A stretch of 64,000 bases of DNA from Rodentibacter trehalosifermentans (GTDB lineage Bacteria > Pseudomonadota > Gammaproteobacteria > Enterobacterales > Pasteurellaceae): positions 62,001-126,000 of the forward strand of contig NZ_MLHL01000006.1 of NCBI RefSeq assembly GCF_002000545.1. Direction: 5' to 3'. This document shows, piece after piece, positions 1,705-54,185 of this stretch. How positions within the stretch are numbered: position 1 is the stretch's first letter; the number at the start of each line of letters is the position of its first letter. Both the position numbers and the translations under genes were made by a program. The notes beneath the pieces are model-generated. The model did no database searches, was not told where the DNA came from, and was given only the letters and a program-made list of their open reading frames with translations.

Positions 1705-3714
1705 ATGAAACTATTTCTTTGTGAAAAACCTTCTCAAGGTAATGATATTGCCAAAGTATTAGGGGCAACAAAACGTGGTGAGGGTTGTTTATCAACACCG
1801 GATGGTCAATTGGTTGTGACCTGGGGAATTGGGCATTTGGTTGAGCAGTTTAATCCGGAACAATACGATCCCGCTTTTAAAAAATGGGCATTTGAAACCT
1901 TACCCATTATTCCGTCACAGTGGGGGCTTTCACCTAAAAAAGAAACGAAGAAACAGTACAATGTTGTGATAAAACTCATTAAGCAAGCACAATTGGTTGT
2001 GATTGCCACCGATATTGACCGAGAAGGGGAAACGATAGCCCGGGAGCTGCTTGATTTAGCGAAGTTTCGAGGTCAAATAAAACGCCTTTGGTTGTCTGCA
2101 TTAGATGATGCCAGTATTCGTAAAGCATTAGGGGCATTAAAGAATAACGAAGACACTTTACCACTTTACTATGCGGGACTTGCCCGTAGCCGAGCTGATT
2201 GGCTTATCGGGATGAATTTCTCCCGCCTTTTTACGCTGCTTGCCCAACAAAAAGGTTATCAAGGTAAACCATTAAGTGTGGGGCGTGTACAAAGTCCTAC
2301 GTTAAGTCTTGTCGTTAATCGTGACCGCGAAATTAAAAATTTCATTCCAAAGCAGCACTTTACATTACAGGTTATGCTTTCTGAGGGAACGCAACCTTTT
2401 GCTACACAATATGTTATCCCTGAACAATATTGTGATACAGATGGGCTTTGTTTATCCGCTCAAGTGATACAGGCTGCTAATCAGCAAATTCGTCAAATCG
2501 GTCAAGCGAAAGTTGAATCGGTTGAGACAAAACGGGAAAAACAAAGTGCGCCGCTTTTATTTGCCTTGAGCGATTTACAATCTGAAGCAAACCGCCTCTA
2601 TGGACTTGGGGCACAACAAGTGCTTGATATTGCTCAATCACTTTATGAAACCCACAAAGCTACGACCTATCCACGTACTGATTGCGGTTACTTGCCTGAA
2701 TCCCAGTTAGTGGAAGCACCGAGGGTAATTCAGTGTCTCATTCAATCTGACAGCAGATTACAACCTATTGCCTCAAAGTTAAATCTAAGTCAAAAATCCC
2801 GAGCATGGAACGACAAAAAAATTACCGCTCACCATGGCATTATTCCGACTATGGTAAAAGCGGACATCAGTAAAATGTCGGAAGATGAGTTTAGGATCTA
2901 CGATTTGATTCGCCGTCGTTATTTAGCTCAGTTCCTACCGGTGAGTGAAACCGATAAAACCCAAATTGTGTTGAAGTGCGGCCAACATGTGTTGGCTGCA
3001 CGGGGGAATGTGTTGATTGCTCCCGGCTGGAAAATCTTATTTGGCAAAACGCTTGATGAAGAAGATGAATCTAAACAAGCGCTCCCGACCTTAACGCAAG
3101 GACAAACTTGCCGGGTCATCGATACGGAAATGAAAACCCAACAAACCACACCGCCAAACCATTTCACTGAAGGGACGCTACTCAGTGCAATGAAAAATGC
3201 GGCTAGATTTGTTACGGATGAGAGATTAAAACAACGGTTACGTGAAACGGAAGGGCTTGGCACGGAGGCAACGCGGGCCGGAACAATTCAGGGGTTGATT
3301 GATAAAGGTTTCTTAGCCAAAAAAGGGAAATCATTGATTGCGACAAATGAAGCCGTTTCTTTGATTGATAACTTGCCGGTATTACTCAAAGATCCGGGTT
3401 TAACCGCGCTTTGGGAGCAAGCCCTGAATCAGATTGCAGAAAAAACGCTTTCACTTGATGTTTTTATGCAGAGACAAGAGCAGTTTATTCGGCAATTGAT
3501 GAAAGAGTGTCTTGCAAAAGGGATCTCTTTAGGAAGTATTGAAATTAAAAAGTGTTCTAAATGTGGTTCCCCGATGAGCAAGCGGAAGGGAAAAAACGGT
3601 TTATTTTGGGGATGCAGCCAATACCCTAAATGTGATGGATTAGAAAGTATTGGCGGAAAACGAACAAGAAAGAAAAAAGTTGTGAGAGAAAGGGGAAATC
3701 AGATCCTCGTTTGA
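1705..3714 (+). CDS. topB: DNA topoisomerase III (type IA), ICE-encoded
   Basis: A 669-residue type IA topoisomerase that relaxes and decatenates DNA through a single-strand break. The N-terminal Toprim domain begins LFLCEKPSQ and contains DIDREGE (about 103-109), the metal-binding motif. The active-site tyrosine lies in TYPRTDCGYL (Tyr about 322). SVGRVQSPTL and EGLGTEATRAGTI are conserved family blocks. A C-terminal C4 zinc finger (about 616-645, CSKCGSPM ... GCSQYPKC) follows. Length is close to chromosomal TopB of E. coli (653). An in-frame TTG at 1696 lies upstream, but the ATG at 1705 gives the usual N-terminus; the ribosome binding site is weak. Topoisomerase III genes are a standard part of this ICE family and probably act on the transferred or replicating DNA. 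Confidence 0.97.
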   Translation: MKLFLCEKPSQGNDIAKVLGATKRGEGCLSTPDGQLVVTWGIGHLVEQFNPEQYDPAFKKWAFETLPIIPSQWGLSPKKETKKQYNVVIKLIKQAQLVVIATDIDREGETIARELLDLAKFRGQIKRLWLSALDDASIRKALGALKNNEDTLPLYYAGLARSRADWLIGMNFSRLFTLLAQQKGYQGKPLSVGRVQSPTLSLVVNRDREIKNFIPKQHFTLQVMLSEGTQPFATQYVIPEQYCDTDGLCLSAQVIQAANQQIRQIGQAKVESVETKREKQSAPLLFALSDLQSEANRLYGLGAQQVLDIAQSLYETHKATTYPRTDCGYLPESQLVEAPRVIQCLIQSDSRLQPIASKLNLSQKSRAWNDKKITAHHGIIPTMVKADISKMSEDEFRIYDLIRRRYLAQFLPVSETDKTQIVLKCGQHVLAARGNVLIAPGWKILFGKTLDEEDESKQALPTLTQGQTCRVIDTEMKTQQTTPPNHFTEGTLLSAMKNAARFVTDERLKQRLRETEGLGTEATRAGTIQGLIDKGFLAKKGKSLIATNEAVSLIDNLPVLLKDPGLTALWEQALNQIAEKTLSLDVFMQRQEQFIRQLMKECLAKGISLGSIEIKKCSKCGSPMSKRKGKNGLFWGCSQYPKCDGLESIGGKRTRKKKVVRERGNQILV

Positions 3715-3721
3715 TGTTGTT

Positions 3722-3738
3722 TTGTAGATTTGCTACAA
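3722..3738 (+). other. Hairpin just after topB
   Basis: TTGTAG (3722-3727) pairs with CTACAA (3733-3738) around a 5-base loop. Only a short mixed T/A tract follows, so it is at best a weak terminator. It may belong to the structured region that follows. Confidence 0.4.
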
Positions 3739-3763
3739 TTTGATTTGCAAAACCGCTTTGTAT

Positions 3764-3831
3764 TGTCGGTCATCAATACAGAAAAATGTTCCTCAGCATT
3801 CTGAAAAGGACTCTGCTGTTGGCAGGAATGC
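3764..3831 (+). other. Structured motif, copy 1 of 3
   Basis: TGTATTG / CAATACA form an upstream hairpin. Downstream, GCATTC (3796-3801) pairs with GAATGC (3826-3831), enclosing the unpaired word TGAAAAGGACT and a stacked hairpin CTGCT (3813-3817) / GGCAG (3821-3825) with loop GTT. The word CTCAGC[A/G]TTCTGAAAAG is shared with the copies at 4240-4360 and 36389-36513. It lies downstream of topB and upstream of the leader cassettes. Confidence 0.65.
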
Positions 3832-3840
3832 AAACTAAAC

Positions 3841-4160
3841 CATGCGATACGATTTTTTGTCGCTACCTTACAAATTGATTTACTGTAAGGACAAAAGAGT
3901 ATTGAGGTATTTTTTTGTCCTTGCAGTAATGCTTATTTATCCAAACCGGAGCTCACCGGTGAAACATTGAGTGCCCTTTGCATTGTAATAATGCGCGTTG
4001 TATCGGTAAGAGGCTGCTTTGTTACCGAATAATAGAAGAATGTCGTTGTATTATGTTTTGACGAGGATGATACAGCACCACTTGTATTATATAGCCTGAC
4101 TTATCAAATTTGTTCTTATCTGTGTAGCCCCTGGTGTGTTTGCCTAGGGGCTATTTTATT
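3841..4160 (+). ncRNA. Putative structured RNA or single-strand DNA region ending in a terminator
   Basis: This stretch has no convincing reading frame but is dense in hairpins: CCTTACA/TGTAAGG (about 3866-3890), AGGACAAAA/TTTTTTGTCCT (about 3888-3922), ACCGG/CCGGT (about 3945-3961), GCATT/AATGC, CGGTAA/TTACCG (about 4003-4026), and finally the terminator at 4125-4160. This suits a non-coding transcript of up to about 320 bases. Because it sits next to topB and an SSB-like replication gene in a conjugative element, an origin-like single-strand structure (oriT or second-strand initiation) is an alternative. No promoter is obvious. Confidence 0.4.
4125..4160 (+). terminator. Intrinsic terminator
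   Basis: TAGCCCCT (4125-4132) pairs perfectly with AGGGGCTA (4146-4153), followed by a T-rich tail. It closes the structured region after topB. Confidence 0.85.
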
Positions 4161-4239
4161 GTCTAAACAGAATATTCAATTAAATGTATTTATTTTATAC
4201 AAAAAATTTTACATTAAGCCCATCTTTAAATATTAAGCA

Positions 4240-4360
4240 GCTATCGTTGATAGCACTTAAACATTGCCATCCCTTGAAAGAGCAATGCCTCGTCGTTGAT
4301 GAGTGGGGAGTTCAATGTCTCTCAGCGTTCTGAAAAGAGCTCCAATGATATTGGGAACGC
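4240..4360 (+). other. Structured motif, copy 2 of 3
   Basis: Ordered helices: GCTATC/GATAGC (4240-4254, loop GTT), CATTGC/GCAATG (4262-4287), CTCGTC/GATGAG (4289-4303, loop GTT), a weaker GGGAG/CTCTC helix, and the terminal element GCGTTC (4325-4330) / GAACGC (4355-4360) enclosing CCAAT/ATTGG (loop GAT). Compared with copies 1 and 3 the outer pair A-T has become G-C and the inner stem differs on both strands, which keeps the pairing. It lies just upstream of the leader of the gene at 4457. Confidence 0.65.
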
Positions 4361-4379
4361 TTATTTTACTTATCAATTT

Positions 4380-4456: not shown

Positions 4457-4900
4457 ATGTCTACTCAAACTAACGCTAAAACTTATTTTAACTTACACAC
4501 CACAGGCATCGGCTATTTAAGCGATATTCGCACGGTAACGCCTAAAAAAGGTTCACCTTTCTTAGCTTGCCGTATTGCCGCTTTAGTCGGTGATAACAAT
4601 GATGTGGAGTATCGTTATTTCGATACCAACGTTGTTGGTAAAGAAGCCGAGAGTTTAATTAAACGTTGTGAACAAGCCGTGGATGAAAAGAGAAAAGTGC
4701 TCATTTCATTTAATATCTCTGATATATGGACTGATACCTTTACTTATACAAAGGATACTCAGTACCATAAAAAAGGAGATGTTGGCGTGTCCTTAAAAGG
4801 GCGTTTAATTCGCATCGATATGATTAAAGTTGATGGTGACGTTAAATATCAGCGAGAACAAAAATCTCAAAAATCGGCTGAACAAGGTGAAAACCAATAG
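4457..4900 (+). CDS. ICE replication / SSB-like protein, DUF3577 (STY4534) family
   Basis: A 147-residue protein beginning MSTQTNAKTYFNLHTTGIGY, with the family features of a conserved N-terminal block (LSDIRTVTPKKGSPFLACRIAAL) and an OB-fold-like middle. The family is known from SPI-7-type ICEs and is annotated as an ICE replication protein that resembles single-strand binding proteins. The ATG at 4457 is chosen because GGAGAAAC lies directly before it; an upstream in-frame start at 4385 would place the leader hairpin inside the gene. The C-terminus is charged and probably disordered. It is the first of the cassettes with a hairpin leader. Confidence 0.88.
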   Translation: MSTQTNAKTYFNLHTTGIGYLSDIRTVTPKKGSPFLACRIAALVGDNNDVEYRYFDTNVVGKEAESLIKRCEQAVDEKRKVLISFNISDIWTDTFTYTKDTQYHKKGDVGVSLKGRLIRIDMIKVDGDVKYQREQKSQKSAEQGENQ

Positions 4901-5359: not shown

Positions 5360-5382
5360 TTTCATCTTTTCTTTATCTATTT

Positions 5383-5412
5383 AAAAGTGCGTTCAAATTT
5401 GACCGCACTTTT
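5383..5412 (+). terminator. Inverted uptake-signal pair acting as terminator
   Basis: AAAAGTGCG and its downstream complement CGCACTTTT are separated by TTCAAATTTGACC, forming a stem with a T-rich end. The core matches the Haemophilus-type uptake signal. Similar pairs follow several genes here. Confidence 0.75.
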
Positions 5413-5422
5413 ATCTTTCATT

Positions 5423-5483
5423 TACCCGTTGGGGAAACCTCCCCACGGACGTTTCCCCTTATTTTTCTATGAGGAGAAACAAA
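5423..5483 (+). promoter_or_regulatory. Leader L3: hairpin / anti-Shine-Dalgarno switch
   Basis: A CCG..GGGG / CCCC..CGG hairpin displays AAAC; GGGGAAAC (5431-5438) is perfectly complementary to GTTTCCCC (5451-5458), which also matches GGAGAAAC (5473-5480) in the ribosome binding site at 7 of 8 positions. Confidence 0.7.
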
Positions 5484-5747
5484 ATGGAAATTAAACTCAA
5501 CAAGAAAATGTGGGGTGCTTGGCTTGAAACATCAGGCAATCAAGCACGATTAGCCTTAGATTTAATCACCGGCTTTTGTCCCGCAGTCTTTTCACTAAAA
5601 AAAGAAACCCGCTCCGATTTTGTGCTAACCAACTGCTCAACCGCAGATGCAGAATTGATTGCGGGCATCTCACCAAATGGACTTCAAATTAAAAGCCGAC
5701 ATAGTAAAAAATTTGTCGACTTTGATGATCCCATCTGGCGGGGCTAG
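5484..5747 (+). CDS. Small hypothetical ICE protein
   Basis: An 87-residue protein (MEIKLNKKMWGAWLETSG...). The ATG at 5484 follows GGAGAAAC; the upstream ATG at 5469 would overlap the ribosome binding site and is rejected. The sequence is soluble, with a cysteine in GFCPAVF and one in TNCSTAD. No family is recognised. It sits in a leader cassette between two inverted uptake-signal terminators. Confidence 0.75.
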   Translation: MEIKLNKKMWGAWLETSGNQARLALDLITGFCPAVFSLKKETRSDFVLTNCSTADAELIAGISPNGLQIKSRHSKKFVDFDDPIWRG

Positions 5748-5774
5748 TCTTTTTTATTCTTTGACGTTAAACAG

Positions 5775-5804
5775 AAAAGTGCACTCAAATTTGAGCGCAC
5801 TTTT
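5775..5804 (+). terminator. Inverted uptake-signal-like pair acting as terminator
   Basis: AAAAGTGC ... GCGCACTTTT form a stem around CTCAAATTTGA with a T run at the end. The uptake core is slightly degenerate (GTGCACT / GAGCGCAC), so the pairing is kept better than the uptake word. Confidence 0.7.
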
Positions 5805-5814
5805 ACCTCTCATT

Positions 5815-5875
5815 TACCCGTTGGGGAAATCTCCCCGCGGATGTTTCCCCTTTGTTTTCTATGAGGAGAAACAAA
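5815..5875 (+). promoter_or_regulatory. Leader L4: hairpin / anti-Shine-Dalgarno switch
   Basis: Same plan as L3: CCG..GGGG / CCCC..CGG hairpin, GGGGAAA (5823-5829) complementary to TTTCCCC (5844-5850), and GTTTCCCC (5843-5850) nearly complementary to GGAGAAAC (5865-5872) just before the ATG. Confidence 0.7.
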
Positions 5876-6313
5876 ATGATGACAACGCATTTACCTTTAC
5901 CAACTTTATCCCGTAAAACGACTTATGAAGACGTGATGGAGAGCGTTTATCTCCTGAGAATCTATCACTATGATTTGCTAGATCTAAGGGACTATCTTCA
6001 TCAACGGATTCAGTCTTCACCGGGATGGAAGGATATTTTACATCGGTTAAATACCGAGATTGCCGTGGCATCAGAGAAAGCCGATCAAGATGCGGCTTAC
6101 TTAGATACCGTTGATGCGTTTAATATGGCAGAAAAATACGATGCGGGTTACTGTGCCATACCTTGGTACTTTTTTAGAGCCCCTTCTCTTTGCCGTCGCG
6201 TATTAAATCGGACACATCCTTTGGTTAAACTTTACGACAAATATGAATATTTATTTGTCGATATTGAAAAAGCCGAAGGCTATATCAGCTATTCACCTAG
6301 AAAGCTGTTTTAG
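5876..6313 (+). CDS. Hypothetical ICE protein
   Basis: A 145-residue soluble protein starting MMTTHLPLPTLSRKTTYEDV. The ATG at 5876 follows GGAGAAAC; the in-frame ATG at 5852 lies inside the leader. The sequence is helical with several tyrosines (LLRIYHYDLLDLRDYLHQRI). No family is recognised. Its neighbours and leader place it with the accessory maintenance genes of the ICE. Confidence 0.78.
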   Translation: MMTTHLPLPTLSRKTTYEDVMESVYLLRIYHYDLLDLRDYLHQRIQSSPGWKDILHRLNTEIAVASEKADQDAAYLDTVDAFNMAEKYDAGYCAIPWYFFRAPSLCRRVLNRTHPLVKLYDKYEYLFVDIEKAEGYISYSPRKLF

Positions 6314-6335: not shown

Positions 6336-6406
6336 CACCCCTAAAGGGAAATAGGTTTCCCTTTGGGTGACGTATTTCCCTTACTTTTACATCGAGGAGA
6401 AATACG
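6336..6406 (+). promoter_or_regulatory. Leader L5: hairpin / anti-Shine-Dalgarno switch
   Basis: A long hairpin (ACCC..AAAGGGAAA / TTTCCCTTT GGGT) contains GGGAAATA (6346-6353), perfectly complementary to TATTTCCC (6373-6380). That arm is also near-complementary to the ribosome binding site GGAGAAATA (6396-6404). The A-T rich ends (ATA) differ from L3/L4 in all three positions together. Confidence 0.7.
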
Positions 6407-7054
6407 ATGATAACTAATACTTATGCTAAGTTTGCCCCAAACGTCTTTGTTGCAAAATGCCAGGAACCCCATAAAAAGGGCGATATTATCGTTCTTACCA
6501 GCAGACATGGTAAAGAAGTTGAAGTAGAAATTCACAATTTGGTTAAACAAAGTGCGGATCACTACTTTTATTCTTTTACCCGCTGTGATGGGATGGATTG
6601 CCAAAAACGTGCTGAGCAAAGAGCGCAACGCTATCAAGATGCGGCGCATAATGCGATGAAACGTAGCCATCAGTATTTTGAGGCAGCCCAGGAAGGACGG
6701 GAATTTTTGAGTATGGGGGAGCCGATTAAAATCGGTCACCACAGCGAAAAGCGTCATCGGGCACTGATTGATCGTAATCATCGACGGATGGAAAAATCCG
6801 TTGAGGAAATGAGAAAAGCAGAAAGTTACGATGACAAAATCGCATATTGGGAAAGTCGAGCAGGAAAAATTGATTTATCTATGCCGGAAAGTCTTGAATT
6901 CTTTCAGTTTGAATTGGCAAAAGCTAAGGAAAAACATCAGAAATTGAAAGATAATCCCGAAAAACGTGCGCATCCTTTTTCGCTCACCTATGCCAAAAAA
7001 GCCGTGAATGAGCTTGAGAAAAAAGTGAAATTAGCGGAAGTACTTTGGGCATAA
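6407..7054 (+). CDS. DUF3560 domain protein
   Basis: A 215-residue protein. The block EPIKIGHHSEKRHRALIDRNHRRMEKSVEEMRKA (about 105-140) is the recognisable core of DUF3560 proteins, found mainly on conjugative plasmids and ICEs. The N-terminal 60 residues form a small beta-rich domain with two cysteines (TRCDGMDC), and the C-terminal third is a charged coiled-coil-like helix ending in LEKKVKLAEVLWA. GGAGAAATA lies directly before the ATG. The biochemical role is unknown. Confidence 0.85.
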   Translation: MITNTYAKFAPNVFVAKCQEPHKKGDIIVLTSRHGKEVEVEIHNLVKQSADHYFYSFTRCDGMDCQKRAEQRAQRYQDAAHNAMKRSHQYFEAAQEGREFLSMGEPIKIGHHSEKRHRALIDRNHRRMEKSVEEMRKAESYDDKIAYWESRAGKIDLSMPESLEFFQFELAKAKEKHQKLKDNPEKRAHPFSLTYAKKAVNELEKKVKLAEVLWA

Positions 7055-7065
7055 TATTGACACTC

Positions 7066-7093
7066 AAGTGCGGTCAATTTTGACTGCACTTTT
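7066..7093 (+). terminator. Inverted uptake-signal pair acting as terminator
   Basis: AAGTGCGGTCA is followed closely by its near complement TGACTGCACTTTT, giving a stem with a T run. One arm is a full uptake signal and the other has a G-to-T-type mismatch. Confidence 0.72.
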
Positions 7094-8851: not shown

Positions 8852-8890
8852 AAGCCTATCTACTTTTTGTGGATAGGCTTTACTTTTTTT
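8852..8890 (+). terminator. Intrinsic terminator
   Basis: AAGCCTATC (8852-8860) pairs with GATAGGCTT (8872-8880), followed by TACTTTTTTT. Confidence 0.9.
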
Positions 8891-34825: not shown

Positions 34826-35788
34826 TTAATAACTCATCCAATCAACACTACCTAAAAAAGTTTGTCCACGTCGTTTACAGCAAGCATAAGGTCGCCATAA
34901 TGCCCAGCTGTAGCTTTCTTGATTAGATAACTTGTCACCATAAGCATCAGTTGTAAAACCGTCGGGAAATATGGCACAAGTATTTTGTGTTTTAGGGCTT
35001 AACATTTGCCATTTATGTGTCTTTTTATTGCCTTCTTTAACTTCTTTCGGTGGCCAATAACCATCACGTTGTTTTGCTGTTGCCGGGAGATAAACGTGTA
35101 ATTGTCCATCACGGCTTACGATATCTGCGATACGTTGCGCAACAACTGCAGAGGCTTTGTAGTCGTGAACTTGTGAAACATAACCGCCACGTGGGAAGAG
35201 GTTTCCCCACATATCCCCGCTTTTACTCACTTCTCTCATACCGGGCGTAAGTGCTTCCGGATAAAACATTTCCGGCATGTTATAACGCCAAGCAAAGTAA
35301 TCGAGTGCACTTAGAAAGTATGGAACATAAGGTGTTGTTTGGCTTTCGCAGGAATACCCCATAGAGCTAATCATGTTTAAAAATAACCCGCCGGGATGCC
35401 CGATTGCTTCCGCATTTTTAAAAGTAAGCTGAGTATATTTTCCCTGTGTCAGAGATTGATAGCCGCCGCCTTTTGCACCTTGATTCAGCATTTTCATTTC
35501 AGTCCAAGGACTTTGATTATCATGGTTATAGGTTGAAACAACCATTTCAGGGATAAAATGATGTACTTTTGTTGAAGTGCGTACTTTACAGCCGAACTGA
35601 GTACAAAAAAGCCAATAGCACATTCCCACAACCTTATAGTCCGCACAATTTGGCGAAGCGGAGGATGAGGCAATGGTTGCCGTATCAATTGAGCTGCCTT
35701 CTATAGCGTAAGAGATTGGCGGAAGGCTTACACCGGCGATAGTAGAGGCTAATCCATATATAACTAATGATGAATATCGTTTTTTCAT
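34826..35788 (-). CDS. ICE protein TIGR03756 (PFL_4710), TraU-like
   Basis: A 320-residue secreted protein with signal peptide, multiple cysteines (NCADYKVVGMCYWLFCTQFGCKVRTS; YACCKRRGQTFLG) and the conserved HPGGLFLNMISSMGYSCES block. TraU-like proteins are periplasmic, disulfide-rich and needed for DNA transfer. It starts 5 bases after the upstream gene and precedes the TraH-like fusion. Confidence 0.92.
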   Translation of the reverse strand: MKKRYSSLVIYGLASTIAGVSLPPISYAIEGSSIDTATIASSSASPNCADYKVVGMCYWLFCTQFGCKVRTSTKVHHFIPEMVVSTYNHDNQSPWTEMKMLNQGAKGGGYQSLTQGKYTQLTFKNAEAIGHPGGLFLNMISSMGYSCESQTTPYVPYFLSALDYFAWRYNMPEMFYPEALTPGMREVSKSGDMWGNLFPRGGYVSQVHDYKASAVVAQRIADIVSRDGQLHVYLPATAKQRDGYWPPKEVKEGNKKTHKWQMLSPKTQNTCAIFPDGFTTDAYGDKLSNQESYSWALWRPYACCKRRGQTFLGSVDWMSY

Positions 35789-35793
35789 TGCGC

Positions 35794-36225
35794 TTATCTA
35801 TTTTCATGTTGTTGGTAAAATTGAAGTGCTTTGGCGATATCTGTTTCGCCATAAATAACCGCACTTTGTCCGGTCTCAGGATGGGTAAATAAGATGGCTG
35901 GGACTTTAGTGATACCGTTTTTCCAACCCTCTGTCACACCGATATAAGCCTCAGCCAGGGCTTGTTCTGTTTGTTTCCATGCTGAAGATTGCATTTTTTG
36001 CCGAATTTGAGTTTCAGCAATTTGAGGATTTGTACTCAAATGATGACTGAGCTGTTCTTCGAGCAGTTCGACTTGATCGAGATGGTAAACATGTGTGGCT
36101 AATTGACGATTCTTGATTGGGTAATAACTTGTGGTATAAGCATTTACCTCAATATGAGCAGGTAAAGAAGCCGATGTACTCATCGTAAAAGATAAAGTCA
36201 GCAGAAAAAGAATATTTTTTCGCAT
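35794..36225 (-). CDS. ICE protein TIGR03757 (PFL_4709), TraW/TrbC-like
   Basis: A 143-residue secreted protein (signal MRKNILFLLTLSFTMSTSAS). The sequence IEVNAYTTSYYPI opens the mature part and KVPAILFTHPETGQSAVIYGETDIAKALQFY closes it with a thioredoxin-like or TrbC-like strand. First gene of the minus-strand transfer operon; divergent from the leader cassettes at 36.6 kb. Contains an uptake-signal core. Confidence 0.9.
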   Translation of the reverse strand: MRKNILFLLTLSFTMSTSASLPAHIEVNAYTTSYYPIKNRQLATHVYHLDQVELLEEQLSHHLSTNPQIAETQIRQKMQSSAWKQTEQALAEAYIGVTEGWKNGITKVPAILFTHPETGQSAVIYGETDIAKALQFYQQHENR

Positions 36226-36388
36226 AGGATTAAGCGATTGAATGTGGTTTTAGGTAGGGTAAAGTTAAGAATTTTAATCAAAAAAAGAAACGGGAAACTC
36301 TATTCAAAATAAGGAGAATTAAATTCTCCTTGAGAAAAATTTAATTAAAAATTGAAGCAAAAAATAAAATACTGATAATCAGCATTAA

Positions 36389-36513
36389 CTTTCGCTATCG
36401 TTGGTAGCAAAGAAGGCAACCGGAATCTAAAAGGTTGTGTATTCACTGCGGTGAATAGGATTCAAAAATGATCCTCAGCATTCTGAAAAGGACTCTGCCG
36501 TTGGCAGGAATGC
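36389..36513 (+). other. Structured motif, copy 3 of 3
   Basis: Helices in order: CTTT.GCTATC / GGTAGC.AAAG (36389-36412, loop GTT), CAACC/GGTTG (36417-36437), ATTCAC/GTGAAT (36441-36456), AGGAT/ATCCT (36457-36475) and GCATTC (36478-36483) / GAATGC (36508-36513) enclosing CTGCC/GGCAG (loop GTT). Helix order and the unpaired word CTGAAAAGGACT match copies at 3.8 and 4.3 kb. It occupies most of the 377-base divergent gap between the TraW-like gene and the gene at 36603. Confidence 0.7.
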
Positions 36514-36528
36514 ATTTTATACTCATTT

Positions 36529-37563: not shown

Positions 37564-37615
37564 CCTTTATTCATAACGAATTTTGACCGCACTTTTTAAG
37601 TTCGGGCGAATTTTT

Positions 37616-37672
37616 ACCCTGATGGGAACAGTTCCCATCGGGAGGCTGTTCCCTTTATTTTGGAGAACAGCC
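37616..37672 (+). promoter_or_regulatory. Leader L11: hairpin / anti-Shine-Dalgarno switch
   Basis: CCC.GATGGGAA / TTCCCATC.GGG hairpin with GGGAACAG (37624-37631), complementary to CTGTTCCC (37646-37653). GGCTGTTC of the same arm is perfectly complementary over 8 bases to GAACAGCC (37665-37672) immediately before the ATG. Confidence 0.75.
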
Positions 37673-38611
37673 ATGAAAAAACAAACTCAACCTAAAGATT
37701 TATACCAACAAATCACTGATCAAATTGTGGAAGGCCTAGAACAAGGTACGATGCCTTGGCAGAAACCTTGGGATAGCGGTTGGCCACAAATGGCTATTCC
37801 ATGTAACGGTGAAAGTGGACGTCAATATTCCGGTATTAATGTCTTACTGCTATGGATGAGTGCAATCCGGAAAGGTTTTACCCAACGCAAGTGGGTAACC
37901 TTCCAGGGGGCAAACCATCTAGGTGGGCAAGTCCGAACCGGTGAGAAAAGTACCGTCATCATCTTCTACAAACAAAATCTGTTTGAAGAAAAAGATGATT
38001 CCGGCAATGTTATCTTCGATGAAAACGGTGAACCGAAAATGAAATCTTCAGTGTTCATTCGCGGTCATCATGTGTTCAATATTGAGCAGTGTGATGGGCT
38101 AGAAGAATACTATGAAGATTTTCCGGCACCGGAAACTTCATCAGAGATGAGCCCACGCCCGGATTTAGACGTGTTACCTGCTAAAATGGGGATTCCGCTA
38201 TATAACAAAGCACAAGACAGGGCTTGTTATATGCCAAAACGGGATTGCATTGTGATGCCGGATTTTGAAAAGTTTCACTCTGCCGATGATTACTATGCCA
38301 CATTACTACATGAATGTGGCCACGCAACCGGGCATAAAGACCGGTTGAATCGAGAGGGGATTGTCAATTTTGATAAATTTGGTTCTGAACGTTACGCCTT
38401 TGAAGAATTAATTGCTGAACTGACCAGCGCATTTACTTGTGCGCATATGAATGTTTGCAATAACATTTCGCAAAATGCGGCGTATATCGATCATTGGATT
38501 CAAGCATTGAAATCTGATAAAAAAGCGATTTTTCGTGCCTCATCACAGGCACGGGAAGCAACGCAATATTTGATTGATAAATTCAATCAAGAAACGCGTC
38601 TTGCTGCTTAA
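37673..38611 (+). CDS. ArdC-type antirestriction protein (ssDNA-binding domain plus zincin)
   Basis: A 312-residue protein. The N-terminal domain (DLYQQITDQIVEGLEQGTMPWQKPW ... GRQYSGINVLLLW) is the ArdC N-terminal single-strand DNA-binding fold; the C-terminal part has the zincin motif LLHECGHATGHKDRLNR followed by YAFEELIAELTSAF with the third ligand Glu. ArdC proteins of plasmids protect incoming single-stranded DNA against restriction. The ATG at 37673 is set by GGAGAACAGCC; the longer frame runs through the leader. Ends at an inverted uptake-signal terminator. Confidence 0.94.
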   Translation: MKKQTQPKDLYQQITDQIVEGLEQGTMPWQKPWDSGWPQMAIPCNGESGRQYSGINVLLLWMSAIRKGFTQRKWVTFQGANHLGGQVRTGEKSTVIIFYKQNLFEEKDDSGNVIFDENGEPKMKSSVFIRGHHVFNIEQCDGLEEYYEDFPAPETSSEMSPRPDLDVLPAKMGIPLYNKAQDRACYMPKRDCIVMPDFEKFHSADDYYATLLHECGHATGHKDRLNREGIVNFDKFGSERYAFEELIAELTSAFTCAHMNVCNNISQNAAYIDHWIQALKSDKKAIFRASSQAREATQYLIDKFNQETRLAA

Positions 38612-38627
38612 TCCTTTTTACTTTCTG

Positions 38628-38656
38628 AAAGTGCGGGCAAATTTGACCGCACTTTT
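38628..38656 (+). terminator. Inverted uptake-signal pair acting as terminator
   Basis: AAAGTGCGG and CCGCACTTT face each other around GCAAATTTGA-type spacer, with a T run. Ends the ArdC cassette. Confidence 0.78.
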
Positions 38657-38758: not shown

Positions 38759-39193
38759 ATGTCGATTGCTTATGCATCAGATTTATATGGTTGGGCAAAT
38801 GAACAGGCTCGCTATTTAAGCCTTGGTGCCTTTGACCAAGTAGATATAAAACATTTAACAGAGGAATTGGAAACGATGGGGAATTCCGAATTGTCTGAGT
38901 TGGAAAGTCGATTAGAATTGCTGATTATGCACCTACTAAAGTGGCAATATCAGCCTAACCGTCAAGGACGTAGCTGGTTACTGACTATCAAGGAGCAACG
39001 AACTCGGATTGAAAGACGTCTGAAACGTTCCCCTTCCCTGAAATCCAAACTCAATGGTGAAGGATTCTTACAGGATATTTGGGAATTAGCCGTTTTGTCA
39101 GCGGCAAGAGAAACCGGGCTTGATGAAAATAACTTTCCTGAAATACCAAGTTGGACATTGGATGATATATTAAATCCTCAATTCCTACCATAA
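38759..39193 (+). CDS. DUF29 family protein
   Basis: A 144-residue protein with the DUF29 pattern: DLYGWANEQARYLSLGAFDQVDIKHLTEELETMGNSELSELESRLELLIMHLLKWQYQP, then RSWLLTIKEQRTRIERRLKRSPSL. Function of the family unknown; frequent in cyanobacteria and mobile elements. AGGAGGT ribosome binding site, 7 bases before ATG. Unlike its neighbours it has no hairpin leader but its own promoter with palindromic sites. Confidence 0.9.
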   Translation: MSIAYASDLYGWANEQARYLSLGAFDQVDIKHLTEELETMGNSELSELESRLELLIMHLLKWQYQPNRQGRSWLLTIKEQRTRIERRLKRSPSLKSKLNGEGFLQDIWELAVLSAARETGLDENNFPEIPSWTLDDILNPQFLP

Positions 39194-39198
39194 CCACT

Positions 39199-39227
39199 AA
39201 AATGCGGTCAAATTTGACCGCACTTTT
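39199..39227 (+). terminator. Inverted uptake-signal pair acting as terminator
   Basis: AAATGCGGTCAAATTTGACCGCACTTTT: two facing uptake-signal cores form a nearly perfect stem followed by T residues. Ends the DUF29 gene. Confidence 0.8.
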
Positions 39228-45161: not shown

Positions 45162-45265
45162 GATTAGTATAAAAAAATCAAAATGAAATTGCATTAACTT
45201 TCTGCTTTACCTCATTATTGCGTTCTTGTTGTAATAGGCAAAATATTAACAGGCTATCATCAAAA

Positions 45266-47242
45266 ATGCTCAAAAAGCTCATCACCGCATTGCGTATAAC
45301 GCCCCCTCAAAAAACACAGACTGAGAAAAATACATCTATTTCTAAAGGGTGGAACAAGCCATTATCTGCTTCAGAACTACTTAATACACCTCTAAGAGAA
45401 CGGTATTTAACTGATATTTGGCAGAATGTATCCATGACTCCCAAAATGTTTGATACGCTTTATCGTAAGCCAATAGAGCGGTATGCCGAAATTGTTCAAT
45501 TACTTCCTGCATCAGAAAGTCATCATCATGCCCATAATGGGGGGATGCTTGATCATGGATTGGAAGTATTGTCTATTGCTGCAAAATTAAGACAAAATTA
45601 TGTTCTACCGCCAAACTCTCCTCCCGAAGAACAAGCTAAACAAAGAGATGTATGGACTGCTGTTGTCATTTATGCAGCATTATTACATGACCTAGGGAAA
45701 ACAGCGGTCGATGTCGAAGTTATTTTAGAAGATCAAAGACGTTGGTTTCCTTGGCAAGGGAAAATAGATAGCCCATATCGTTTCCGTTATATTAAATCCC
45801 GAGATTATTCACTTCATCCTGTCATAGGGGGGGTATTTGCACAGCAATTTATTCCTCAAGAAGCATTGGATTGGTTAGCTGAATTTCCGGTAGCTTTTTC
45901 CACATTAATGTACTTTATTAGTGGACATTCAGATAAAGCCGGTGTTTTAGCAGATATTATTCAAAAAGCAGATCAAATTAGCGTGACAATGGCACTTGGT
46001 GGAGATATTCAAAAAATTGGAGAAAAAGCACCGGTTTCTTTTGCGAAACAGTTACATATCGCATTGAAAGAAGTTATCAGCAATATGAAACTTAATGCGC
46101 CTAAAGGTGGCGGGGAAGGATGGCTAACCAATGAAGGGCTATGGGTGTTAAGCAAAAGTACAACGGATAAAGTCAGAGCTTATTTAATGCAACAAGGTAT
46201 CTCTGTTCCGGCTCAAAATAGCCGTGTATTTGATGAATTACAGGCACATAAATTAATTGAAGCAACGCCTGAAAATACAGCGATATGGTATGGAAAAATT
46301 GCCTCTAACAGTGGATGGCAGCCATCTGCTCCATTTACATTACTCAAGATATCTCCCAATGTTATATGGGAAGGCATTGATAGTCGCCCACCTTTATTTG
46401 ATGGACTTGTCACAGTAACGGATAAAGAAGGTAACAATAAAATACAAGATGTTTCATTAGGAATTAATGAGACAACTGAAATATTGAGTAAAAATCATGA
46501 TGAAACCAGTAATGAGTTTTTGTTGAGTGATATTAATATCACACCAGATATTACATTAAATACTGGCACAAATGATAACAATATAAAACCTGAATCAGAA
46601 TCTGATCCATTTGGCTCTTACTTAGACTTATTTCCCACACTGGGTGAAAATAGTTCATCAGTGACGTTATCTTCCCATGAATCCGATAATATAAGTATTG
46701 AAACAGTAGAAGAACAATTATCTGAAACAGAGCAGGGTATAACATTGTTGAAAGAGGAAATAAGTAGCGTAGGGAGTGAGCAAAAGCCAAAAAGTCAAAA
46801 AAGTCCTATTTCAGAAGTAAAAATTAAGAACAAGGTAATAGACAGTGGCGACTTATTAACAACTGAAAAATTTATCAAATGGGTAAAAGAGGGTATTATA
46901 GCTAAGTCCATTCACATTAATAAACCTGATGCAAAATTGCATTTTGTGGAAAACCACTTGTTTATGGTTACACCGGCTATATTTCAGTTATATACACGAG
47001 AGAAGTTGGGGAGTGATAAGCAAGAGGATTGGGAATTCCTACAAAAAGAATTTCAAGATTTAGGTATCCATAAACGCTTCTATGCTGATGGAGACTCTTG
47101 GAACATCTGGTCTTGTGATGTGGTTGGGCAGAAAAAAACATCTTTATTGAGTGGATATCTTATTGAAGATGTAAAACTCTTTGTCGGAAATAAACCGGTA
47201 TTCAATAATCACTGGTTAAAACTAAAAGGAAATATTCAATGA
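45266..47242 (+). CDS. traI: MobH-family relaxase (TraI_2 type)
   Basis: A 658-residue relaxase. The N-terminal HD-hydrolase-like TraI_2 domain carries YAEIVQLLPASESHHHAHNGGMLDHGLEVLSIAAKLR (histidine cluster HHHAH and the GGMLDHGLEV motif) and ALLHDLGKTAVDVEV with the HD pair. A long low-complexity linker (about 400-540) leads to the C-terminal TraI_2_C domain (LTTEKFIKWVKEGIIAKSIHINKPDAKLHFVENHLFMVTPAIFQLY). This relaxase nicks the element at oriT and leads the strand into the coupling protein. The ATG at 45266 starts MLKKLITALRI; ribosome binding site weak. Its stop overlaps the integrase ATG. Confidence 0.95.
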   Translation: MLKKLITALRITPPQKTQTEKNTSISKGWNKPLSASELLNTPLRERYLTDIWQNVSMTPKMFDTLYRKPIERYAEIVQLLPASESHHHAHNGGMLDHGLEVLSIAAKLRQNYVLPPNSPPEEQAKQRDVWTAVVIYAALLHDLGKTAVDVEVILEDQRRWFPWQGKIDSPYRFRYIKSRDYSLHPVIGGVFAQQFIPQEALDWLAEFPVAFSTLMYFISGHSDKAGVLADIIQKADQISVTMALGGDIQKIGEKAPVSFAKQLHIALKEVISNMKLNAPKGGGEGWLTNEGLWVLSKSTTDKVRAYLMQQGISVPAQNSRVFDELQAHKLIEATPENTAIWYGKIASNSGWQPSAPFTLLKISPNVIWEGIDSRPPLFDGLVTVTDKEGNNKIQDVSLGINETTEILSKNHDETSNEFLLSDINITPDITLNTGTNDNNIKPESESDPFGSYLDLFPTLGENSSSVTLSSHESDNISIETVEEQLSETEQGITLLKEEISSVGSEQKPKSQKSPISEVKIKNKVIDSGDLLTTEKFIKWVKEGIIAKSIHINKPDAKLHFVENHLFMVTPAIFQLYTREKLGSDKQEDWEFLQKEFQDLGIHKRFYADGDSWNIWSCDVVGQKKTSLLSGYLIEDVKLFVGNKPVFNNHWLKLKGNIQ

Positions 47243-48149
47243 CAGTTTCAAATTTTGATGAATTATTAACTCAATTTTTTTATTTCGTGAATTAAGGCCC
47301 GATACAGAGAAAGCCTATCAAAAAGTCGTCAATCAGCTATTAAAGTTTTATCCTGATAAATCACCTCAAGCTCTAACAAAAGCTGATATAGTCCATTGGA
47401 GAGCTGAGGTTTTGTTTAGAATTAAGCCGGTTACATGGAATAATTATTGTCGACATTTGAAAAGCCTTTATAACTTTGCAATTGAGCAAAATTTTATAAA
47501 AAATAAGGATAACCCATTTAGAAAAATGATGGTAAGAGAAGGTAATACTTCTCGAAAAGTCTTGGATGAAACTATCTTTAGGAAGATAGATTTACTTTTC
47601 AAAAGTGAAGAAAATCTACCTTCTCGCTTAAGACCTAAGTGGTTTATTCTATGTTTGATTAATGTATTAAAATACACAGGAATTCGACGTGCTCAGCTTG
47701 TAAAGTTGAGAATCAAGGATATCAATTTATCAAGAAAAATGATTTGTATCCCATCACACATAAACAAAAATCACAAATATCACGAAATTCCTATTCCGCA
47801 GATACTTTTTAATGACTTTCAGAAGATTGCTGAGGAGTTAAGAAGAATAGGGGATGATGAAGATGCTCAATTTTTTAATGTAAATCGGTTTTCAACGACC
47901 AATTATCGCCAAGGTGAAATGATGAGTAATCATCAGCTATCTCATATTTTTTATGTATTATCTAAAGAGATTCGTTGTAAAGTATCCCCTCATCGTTTTA
48001 GACATACTTTGGCAACAAAACTGATAAAAAATAAAACGAGTATTTACGATGTAAAACGAATATTAGGGCATTCAGATTTGAAAGTGACGATGAGTTATAT
48101 TGAAGAAGACCCAGAAGATCTTCGTTCTGCATTAGATTCGGTGTATTAG
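47239..48149 (+). pseudogene. int: Tyrosine integrase, frameshifted in a T7 run
   Basis: The ATG at 47239 overlaps the relaxase stop (ATGA). The frame reads MTVSNFDELLTQFFYFVN and stops; one extra T in the run 47275-47281 restores QFFLFRELRPDTEKAYQKVV and a continuous 303-residue XerC/D-like recombinase. Catalytic residues are all present: Arg in YTGIRRAQLVKL, Lys near INKNHKYHEIPIP, HRFRH in SPHRFRHTLATKL, His in LGHSD and Tyr in TMSYIEEDP. This integrase lies next to the tRNA-Leu attachment site and is the natural candidate for integration and excision. The broken frame means inactivation, a slippage switch, or a sequence error. Confidence 0.9.
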
Positions 48150-48228
48150 AATAAAGGCTTTGCAAGCAGTATAAAAAGTGTAGGATTGGATCCGTCAGTA
48201 GTGTTTTTTACTTCTGACGGATCTTCTT
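48132..48228 (+). repeat. Direct repeat flanking the cargo, left copy (end of int plus terminator)
   Basis: From the last five codons of int through its terminator the sequence is repeated at 54087-54185. In the 43 bases after the int stop, 41 match. The two copies bracket the metabolic operon and an additional 0.9 kb. Confidence 0.85.
48189..48228 (+). terminator. Intrinsic terminator of int
   Basis: GATCCGTCAG (48189-48198) pairs perfectly with CTGACGGATC (48214-48223), followed by TTCTTC. In the right repeat copy the same stem is degenerate. Confidence 0.85.
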
Positions 48229-53678: not shown

Positions 53679-54086
53679 GGTTATCCCCCTCAAATTAAGT
53701 GGCAAATGGATATTTTTTAAATACCTAGAATAGGGTATCTAAGTTTTCCTAATAGTCAATTTAAATGTTGCAAAAATGTGATTTATTTCACACTTTTTTT
53801 ACAAACGCATTATGAAAATCGATTCTATGTTTAAAAATAGGAAGTTAGTAGTCAAGACAAAACACTAGGTTTGAATAGCGTAATAATGTATTCATATAAA
53901 CGAATAAGATAGAGTTTTATCAGTCGTTCATTTATATCGATTTAAATAAAAAATTATTTGATTATAGGGAATGTTTTATAATTATATGTAGTTTCATTCA
54001 GCTATTAATTTGATGAGAAAATGCCTTATGAATGTCAAAAACTCAAATAAGTTTTGATGATGTTGTAAGTAATGGAGTTATACACA
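53679..54086. other. AT-rich upstream region of the kanosamine-like operon
   Basis: No gene is visible. On the minus strand TTGACT lies near 53,757 with TATTCT about 21 bases further, too far for a standard promoter. AATACC ... GGTAT(C) flank this area as a short inverted repeat that could be an operator. The rest is AT-rich without clear structure. Confidence 0.4.
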
Positions 54087-54185
54087 GTAGATTTGGTATA
54101 CTAGAATAAAGGCTTTACAAGCAGTATAAAAAGTGTAGAATTGGATCTGTTAGTAGTGTTGTTTTACTGCTAATCGATCTTTTTT
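54087..54185 (+). repeat. Direct repeat flanking the cargo, right copy (remnant int end)
   Basis: GTA GAT TTG GTA TAC TAG (54088-54104) resembles the last codons of int (LDSVY stop versus VDLVY stop). The following 43 bases match the left copy at 41 positions, then similarity declines. No further integrase frame precedes it, so only the end of a related integrase gene remains. It lies about 70 bases before the attachment site. Confidence 0.82.

Follow-up and report, generated by a model that had tools for sequence, protein, structure and literature searches.

The 64,000-nt window analysed here (the whole stretch of Rodentibacter trehalosifermentans DNA under study) is contained in an ICE of the ICEHin1056/SPI-7 type. 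The DNA topoisomerase III gene topB ends at 3714, upstream of two copies of a structured motif (A and B), and the first gene after copy B encodes an ICE replication protein of the STY4534 family (Table 1). A third copy (C) lies beyond genes for TIGR03756/TIGR03757 conjugation proteins (34826-36225) and is followed by an ArdC antirestriction gene (ardC; 37583-38611), with genes for a TraI-like helicase and an integrase (45218-48149) in the same element; ssb was not found among the genes tested in the ICE. An 80-nt direct repeat, 89% identical, links the end of the integrase gene (48130-48209) with a site 190 nt before a tRNA gene (54085-54164), and possibly represents the element end or a duplicated attachment region.

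The three copies share a 17-base word (CTCAGCRTTCTGAAAAG) that occurs exactly three times in the window, at 3792, 4321 and 36474, always on the + strand. At up to three mismatches, four matches are found against 0.40 ± 0.64 expected, a number reached in none of 100 shuffles; at up to two mismatches, the three window copies are the only ones in the whole 2.59-Mb genome. The triplication described in the initial annotation is thus real and above chance. A covariance model of the part common to all copies (R1) has matches in 33 of 140 Pasteurellaceae genomes, of which the four weakest depend on a single marginal hit apiece, or on little more, and the fetched loci contain 87 copies. Relatives usually carry three copies per element, all on one strand. 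A and B lie in the interval from topB to the STY4534 gene, separated by ~470-800 bp, and C follows 23-37 kb beyond the pair. A scan of all genomes for the exact pattern returned 69 stretches, with the fold present only in those from Pasteurellaceae; the others lack it and look like chance matches.

Table 1. Positions of motif domains, promoter-like sites, terminators and selected neighbours (window coordinates unless a locus is named).
Feature	Position	Strand	Remarks
ncRNA-A promoter-like site	3711-3739	+	TTGATG-17-TACAAT, TG before -10; consensus match only; -10-like box in 16/20 relatives
ncRNA-A, ~430 nt	3746-4160	+	ends approximate; A6 alignment, 19 elements; 28/50 predicted pairs with compensatory changes
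Copy A hairpin	3752-3779	+	GTATTG-TCGGTCAT-CAATAC; stem-loop proper 3760-3779; CGGT loop complementary to ACCG upstream (3752-3755)
Copy A, PK2	3781-3832	+	S1 3788-3791/3808-3811; S2 3796-3801/3826-3831; hairpin 3813-3825
ncRNA-A long hairpin	3880-3929	+	22 consensus pairs; double changes keep nearly all variable pairs
ncRNA-A core (model R2)	3944-4099	+	loop pseudoknot and three helices; 99.7% of cells paired; 54 double-change cells vs 14.7 ± 2.9
ncRNA-A intrinsic terminator	4124-4162	+	-19.5 kcal/mol and T-run; found by script in 20/22 distinct loci
Copy B, hairpin P1	4233-4260	+	window sequence, relatives
Copy B, PK1	4262-4309	+	S1 4262-4267/4282-4287; S2 4270-4273/4306-4309; hairpin 4289-4303; 0/60 shuffles as high
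Copy B, PK2	4310-4361	+	S1 4319-4322/4336-4339; S2 4325-4330/4355-4360; hairpin 4342-4354
STY4534-family replication protein gene	4457-4900	+	first gene after copy B; 5e-58
Terminator-like hairpin and T-run, cassette gene after B	5431-5466	+	GGGGAAAC...GTTTCCCC TTATTTTT; SD and ATG within 28 nt
Terminator-like hairpin and T-run, next cassette gene	5823-5858	+	
Terminator-like hairpin and T-run, DUF3560 gene	6346-6388	+	
Copy C, promoter-like site	36352-36379	+	TTGAAG-16-GATAAT; -10-like box within ~2 nt of equivalent place in 20/23 copy-C relatives
Copy C, hairpin P1	36389-36412	+	window sequence, relatives
Copy C, PK1	36417-36463	+	S1 36417-36421/36433-36437; S2 36423-36427/36459-36463; hairpin 36440-36457; 0/60 shuffles as high
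Copy C, PK2	36463-36514	+	S1 36472-36475/36489-36492; S2 36478-36483/36508-36513; hairpin 36495-36507
Terminator-like hairpin and T-run, before ardC	37624-37661	+	downstream of C
topB-STAXI noncoding stretch, Enterobacterales ICEs	L217:5850-6140, L214:599-865, L220:5737-6030		

Pseudoknots of the three copies

The 3' end of every copy is formed by an H-type pseudoknot, PK2. The initial annotation had described an outer stem (GCATTC/GAATGC in A and C, GCGTTC/GAACGC in B) and an inner one. Both exist as described there, as S2 and as a hairpin placed ahead of the right-hand S2 strand, but they form only half of a larger structure: a further helix, S1, had been overlooked, and since it flanks the left strand of S2 the helices cross. 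Comparison shows the order of the unit to be 5'-AAATG - S1 - S2 - UGAAA - S1' - hairpin - S2', and the boundaries of the copies are accordingly corrected to ~3752-3832 (A), ~4233-4361 (B) and ~36385-36514 (C). The homologue search, covariance model and covariation test proposed with the initial annotation leave the stems standing. Across 64 distinct copies, 99.0% of the cells of S2 and the PK2 hairpin are standard pairs (82.9% when shuffled, 34-52% when slid), with 113 double-change cells against 27.5 ± 4.7 in shuffles. S1 is not part of the R1 model; it has a native pairing score of 5.94 against 4.32 ± 0.18 with partners permuted among copies (z = 8.8). It reads GTTC/GGAC in A, CTCT/AGAG in B and TCCT/AGGA in C, and takes forms such as GTCATC/GATGAC, ATCGCT/AGCGAT, ACCCTT/GAGGGT, TATCC/GGATA and TCCG/CGGA in relatives. 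Helix covariation in relatives thus strongly supports a conserved fold whose stems are kept by compensatory changes. Since minimum-free-energy folding cannot represent pseudoknots, it yields rival structures for the single copies, with z-scores that are weak (-1.3, -2.7 and -1.4).

Copies B and C begin with a 5' hairpin, P1, followed by two tandem pseudoknots, PK1 and PK2. The upstream hairpins noted initially are present, but in B and C they are part of PK1, which has the same design as PK2. In 33 of 46 distinct copies, no dinucleotide shuffle (n = 60) reaches the native PK1 score. Six copies yield no PK1 in the automatic search; in L155 and L169, one can be seen by eye, with loops beyond the limits of the search. 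Copy B precedes a replication-gene operon and copy C an antirestriction-gene operon.

Promoter-like boxes lie upstream of the copies. In a survey of relatives in which P1 was located by explicit patterns, a -10 hexamer with at least five of six matches is found ~20 nt before P1 in 20 of 23 distinct copy-C relatives, and the -10 box of copy-B relatives is weak. Classical examples of the similarly built motif STAXI have a TTGACA-type promoter ~15 nt before the first hairpin (at least 9 of 12 matches in 8 of 14, against 9% of shuffles). To judge by the sequence, the boxes upstream of the C copies and of classical STAXI put the motif right at the start of its transcripts.

Copy A and a noncoding RNA

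Copy A lacks P1 and PK1; it has one other hairpin instead and heads, as the 5' domain, a predicted noncoding RNA of ~430 nt (ncRNA-A). By eye, the CGGT/ACCG loop pairing of this hairpin changes in step in L154 and L148 and fails in L176. The initial placement of every copy ahead of a leader-cassette cluster therefore holds for B and C, but not for A, which sits in a separate noncoding transcript. The terminator of this transcript is missed by the script in L160 and L179, where a hairpin is visible by eye. When the whole ncRNA was folded with RNAalifold, one strand of PK2 S2 was paired with GRGTGC in the core; this pairing was discarded, since covariation supports S2 and is absent from the alternative pairs.

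ncRNA-A seems to represent a new family of structured noncoding RNAs, and its conserved letters lie mostly outside PK2. The model of its core (R2) has matches in 34 of 140 Pasteurellaceae genomes, and a search of 395 genomes of the order found none in any other family. An Rfam scan gave no match to ncRNA-A, nor did the covariance model of EFASI (RF02957) at E up to 5.

In Enterobacterales ICEs, the interval between topB and STAXI holds a different noncoding stretch that is conserved and ends in a terminator, with the consensus AAGACGCATnCnCTCCGTGAAAASCGCG. Despite its ncRNA-A-equivalent place, the ncRNA-A model does not match it.

Terminator-fronted cassettes and candidate antitermination

The genes downstream of B and C form cassettes, many of which are directly preceded by a terminator-like hairpin and T-run. 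Sense-strand density is 0.81 per kb after B and 1.09 after C, against 0.30 and 0.29 on the antisense strand (2.7-3.8 times higher). A Shine-Dalgarno sequence (SD) and start codon follow within 8-60 nt in 42 of 81 distinct sense terminators after B and 59 of 93 after C (101 of 174 in all), against 0 of 52 antisense terminators. As controls, other Pasteurellaceae loci gave 4 of 26, 45 kb of the E. coli chromosome 2 of 29 and the T4SS genes of the same ICE 0 of 6 (P = 3e-13), though the control sets are small and the elements, being related, do not count as independent observations. In E. coli relatives, 17 of 36 terminators downstream of classical STAXI directly front cassette genes (P = 0.0003). 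In the examples, the start codon follows the terminator by ~20-40 nt, mostly too close for a promoter. Expression of the cassette genes requires passage of polymerase through the fronting hairpins.

Between cassettes there are also terminator-like uptake-signal dyads (AAGTGCGGT/ACCGCACTT; 5372-5412, 5764-5804, 7053-7093, 38616-38656 and 39187-39227). The cassette leaders themselves (5431-5484, 5823-5876, 6346-6407 and 37624-37673) can adopt three mutually exclusive pairings, namely the terminator hairpin GGGGAAAC/GTTTCCCC, an early small hairpin, and GTTTCCCC with the Shine-Dalgarno sequence GGAGAAAC; an equivalent design in other letters is present in L219, an E. coli STAXI element.

The best explanation, to which we would give slightly less than an even chance, is that the motif is a cis-acting 5' RNA domain of three ICE transcripts that lets RNA polymerase read through the cassette terminators. 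On the nascent transcript, PK1 and PK2 of copies B and C would recruit RNA polymerase or alter its state, perhaps with the help of a factor from the ICE or the host, and the polymerase would then pass the intrinsic-terminator hairpins located 20-40 nt before many cassette start codons. The cassettes would remain silent under stray host transcription and be expressed only from their own leader, while the single PK2 of ncRNA-A would be bound by that factor too but cause no antitermination, possibly serving as a decoy. As a counterpoint, ncRNA-A carries PK2 yet ends at its own terminator ~320 nt later, which suggests that one PK2 is insufficient for antitermination. Some cassettes may also have their own promoters, which would count against antitermination (a TACAAT box follows the terminator at 8852-8880), and the association between leaders and terminators could have another cause. 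The weak -10 box of the B copies and the sub-threshold STAXI scores throughout the family weigh against it as well. A literature search on antitermination in ICEs returned nothing relevant. The broader proposal that STAXI-type tandem pseudoknots constitute a new class of processive RNA antiterminators, acting on terminator-fronted cassette arrays and tuned by ncRNA-A with its single copy of the pseudoknot, is a speculative one that we consider somewhat unlikely.

Alternatively, the leader may govern how well the operon mRNAs are translated or how long they persist, serving as a protein site (ICE or host), a metabolite aptamer or a block to 5'-end-dependent decay, with the cassette hairpins serving as translational switches and the T-runs being incidental. 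The 5'-terminal position, the tight structure and the conserved loop letters CAGC and CUGAAA are consistent with such a role, and the cassette leaders can hide the SD (GTTTCYCC with GGAGAAAC), which suggests translational control by the cassette hairpins and counts against antitermination. However, this account leaves unexplained why strong hairpins with T-runs should immediately precede start codons, and do so on no strand but the sense one, and the first gene lies ~100 nt downstream of the leader with hairpins of its own in between; we regard it as unlikely, though a serious competitor. Less probable again is titration, in which ncRNA-A would be the effector and sequester, through the common PK2, the regulator of the leaders in a CsrB-like manner, coordinating the replication and antirestriction operons. 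PK2 is common to A, B and C in nearly all elements, ncRNA-A occurs in about as many genomes, and E. coli ICEs likewise have noncoding RNA near STAXI (EFASI, plus the unrelated-looking topB-STAXI unit), but one PK2 per noncoding RNA would make a poor sponge, and most of the conserved letters of ncRNA-A are not in PK2. Titration by ncRNA-A is compatible with antitermination by the leaders.

Beyond the motif itself, ncRNA-A and the terminator-fronted cassettes are the two findings that a specialist would not have expected. The Pasteurellaceae variant links the motif to operons with terminator-fronted genes, offering a concrete and easily testable mechanism; if antitermination proves true, an RNA-based form of it would govern the replication and antirestriction genes of a major ICE class whose members include antibiotic-resistance carriers.

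The folded strand and kinship with known elements

The initial annotation left open whether the motif is a regulatory RNA or a single-strand DNA signal (second-strand origin, oriT part or single-strand promoter). Across three sets of helices, the sense strand has 114 G-U pairs against five A-C mismatches, indicating that the folded strand carries the sequence of the transcript rather than that of the template. Together with covariation, the promoter-like boxes and the terminator-ended unit, this strongly supports the regulatory-RNA reading. Folding of the sense strand as single-stranded DNA during transfer or replication, as an oriT part, second-strand origin or replication-initiator site, is improbable. 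The motif lies within a module once proposed to hold oriV (PMC2258188), and a single-stranded DNA fold was proposed for STAXI by Weinberg and colleagues (PMC2864571). However, the -10-like box upstream of C relatives stands at a fixed distance, copy A belongs to a terminator-ended unit, the acceptance of G-U as pairs is better suited to RNA, and STAXI itself has been reported in RNA, having been detected by reverse-transcription PCR in E. coli vesicles (PMC12370729). A single-strand promoter of the Frpo type, folded on the template strand, is scarcely credible even though the downstream genes (here ardC) are typical of leading regions, where Frpo drives such genes in F (PMC9849209), since the sense-strand G-U pairs would become A-C mismatches on the template, and the counts above argue strongly against this and largely refute it.

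The motif is best described as a probable diverged STAXI-like 5'-leader RNA, short of proven STAXI membership. STAXI (RF01728; Weinberg et al. 2010) likewise opens with a 5' hairpin, after which pseudoknots are repeated in tandem, their parts arranged as AAUG-S1-S2-UGARA-S1'-hairpin-S2'. It also has a promoter just upstream and several copies per element, and precedes the STY4534 gene and ArdC cassette genes in ICEs of this type. Unit order and 5' hairpin agree in the same register in the cmscan alignment (copy B, L207) and in relatives, and of the typical STAXI neighbours (ssb, topoisomerase, antirestriction and integrase genes), topB, ardC and the integrase gene are present here. Classical STAXI usually has three pseudoknots, against two in B and C and one in A, such that the tandem repetition of the unit (at least twice) is seen in B and C and not in A; UUCG tetraloops, frequent there, are replaced in the inserted hairpins by GTT, GAT, TGCG and others; and one Pasteurellaceae copy is built into a large noncoding RNA. 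The Rfam STAXI model aligns in register with copy B at 12.7 bits and with its relative in L207, the best Pasteurellaceae copy, at 29.9 bits; no Pasteurellaceae copy reaches the gathering score of 40.5 bits, and the name STAXI-like is used because architecture and place agree. A genome-wide STAXI search of the 140 Pasteurellaceae genomes gave no hit over the cut-off, and its weak hits were not at motif copies; Rfam scans of the window assigned no family to the motif, STAXI surfacing only through a relative.

In other ICEs, classical STAXI occupies the corresponding places. It is found at 89.6 bits in the copy-B place of an Enterobacterales ICE (L214), before the STY4534 gene (the copy-B place) in an E. 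coli ICE (L217), and before cassette genes leading to ArdC (the copy-C place) in another (L218). The PK2 and ncRNA-A models find neither E. coli STAXI nor its neighbouring RNA, and kinship therefore rests on architecture, position and the reverse comparison. In L216, from a distant Enterobacterales genome, a TATAAT box is followed by a P1-like hairpin (GCTACTTTTGTAGC) upstream of the STY4534 gene (1190-1380), perhaps a further-diverged leader. STAXI has been an orphan motif since 2010, poised between RNA and single-stranded DNA, and the many diverged Pasteurellaceae copies favour RNA.

Three other systems invite comparison. In E. coli ICEs the noncoding RNA EFASI (RF02957) neighbours STAXI, much as ncRNA-A lies beside copy B; EFASI differs in having no Rfam match to ncRNA-A, another fold and a position before the integrase gene. 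At L218:1825-2556, STAXI and then EFASI stand directly before the integrase gene, so that STAXI and a noncoding RNA travel together. Frpo of plasmid F is likewise a repeated structured noncoding sequence ahead of genes of the leading-region type, but in the present motif it is the sense strand that folds, and the promoter-like boxes lie outside the stems, upstream. Known RNA antiterminators are structured RNAs at the 5' end of the transcript. HK022 put and the Bacillus eps element EAR differ from the present leaders in fold and sequence, and readthrough is here inferred from the arrangement; common to all is a compact structured RNA early in the transcript, before several intrinsic terminators, a layout that for B and C, with intrinsic terminators before the genes, is predicted from the sequence.
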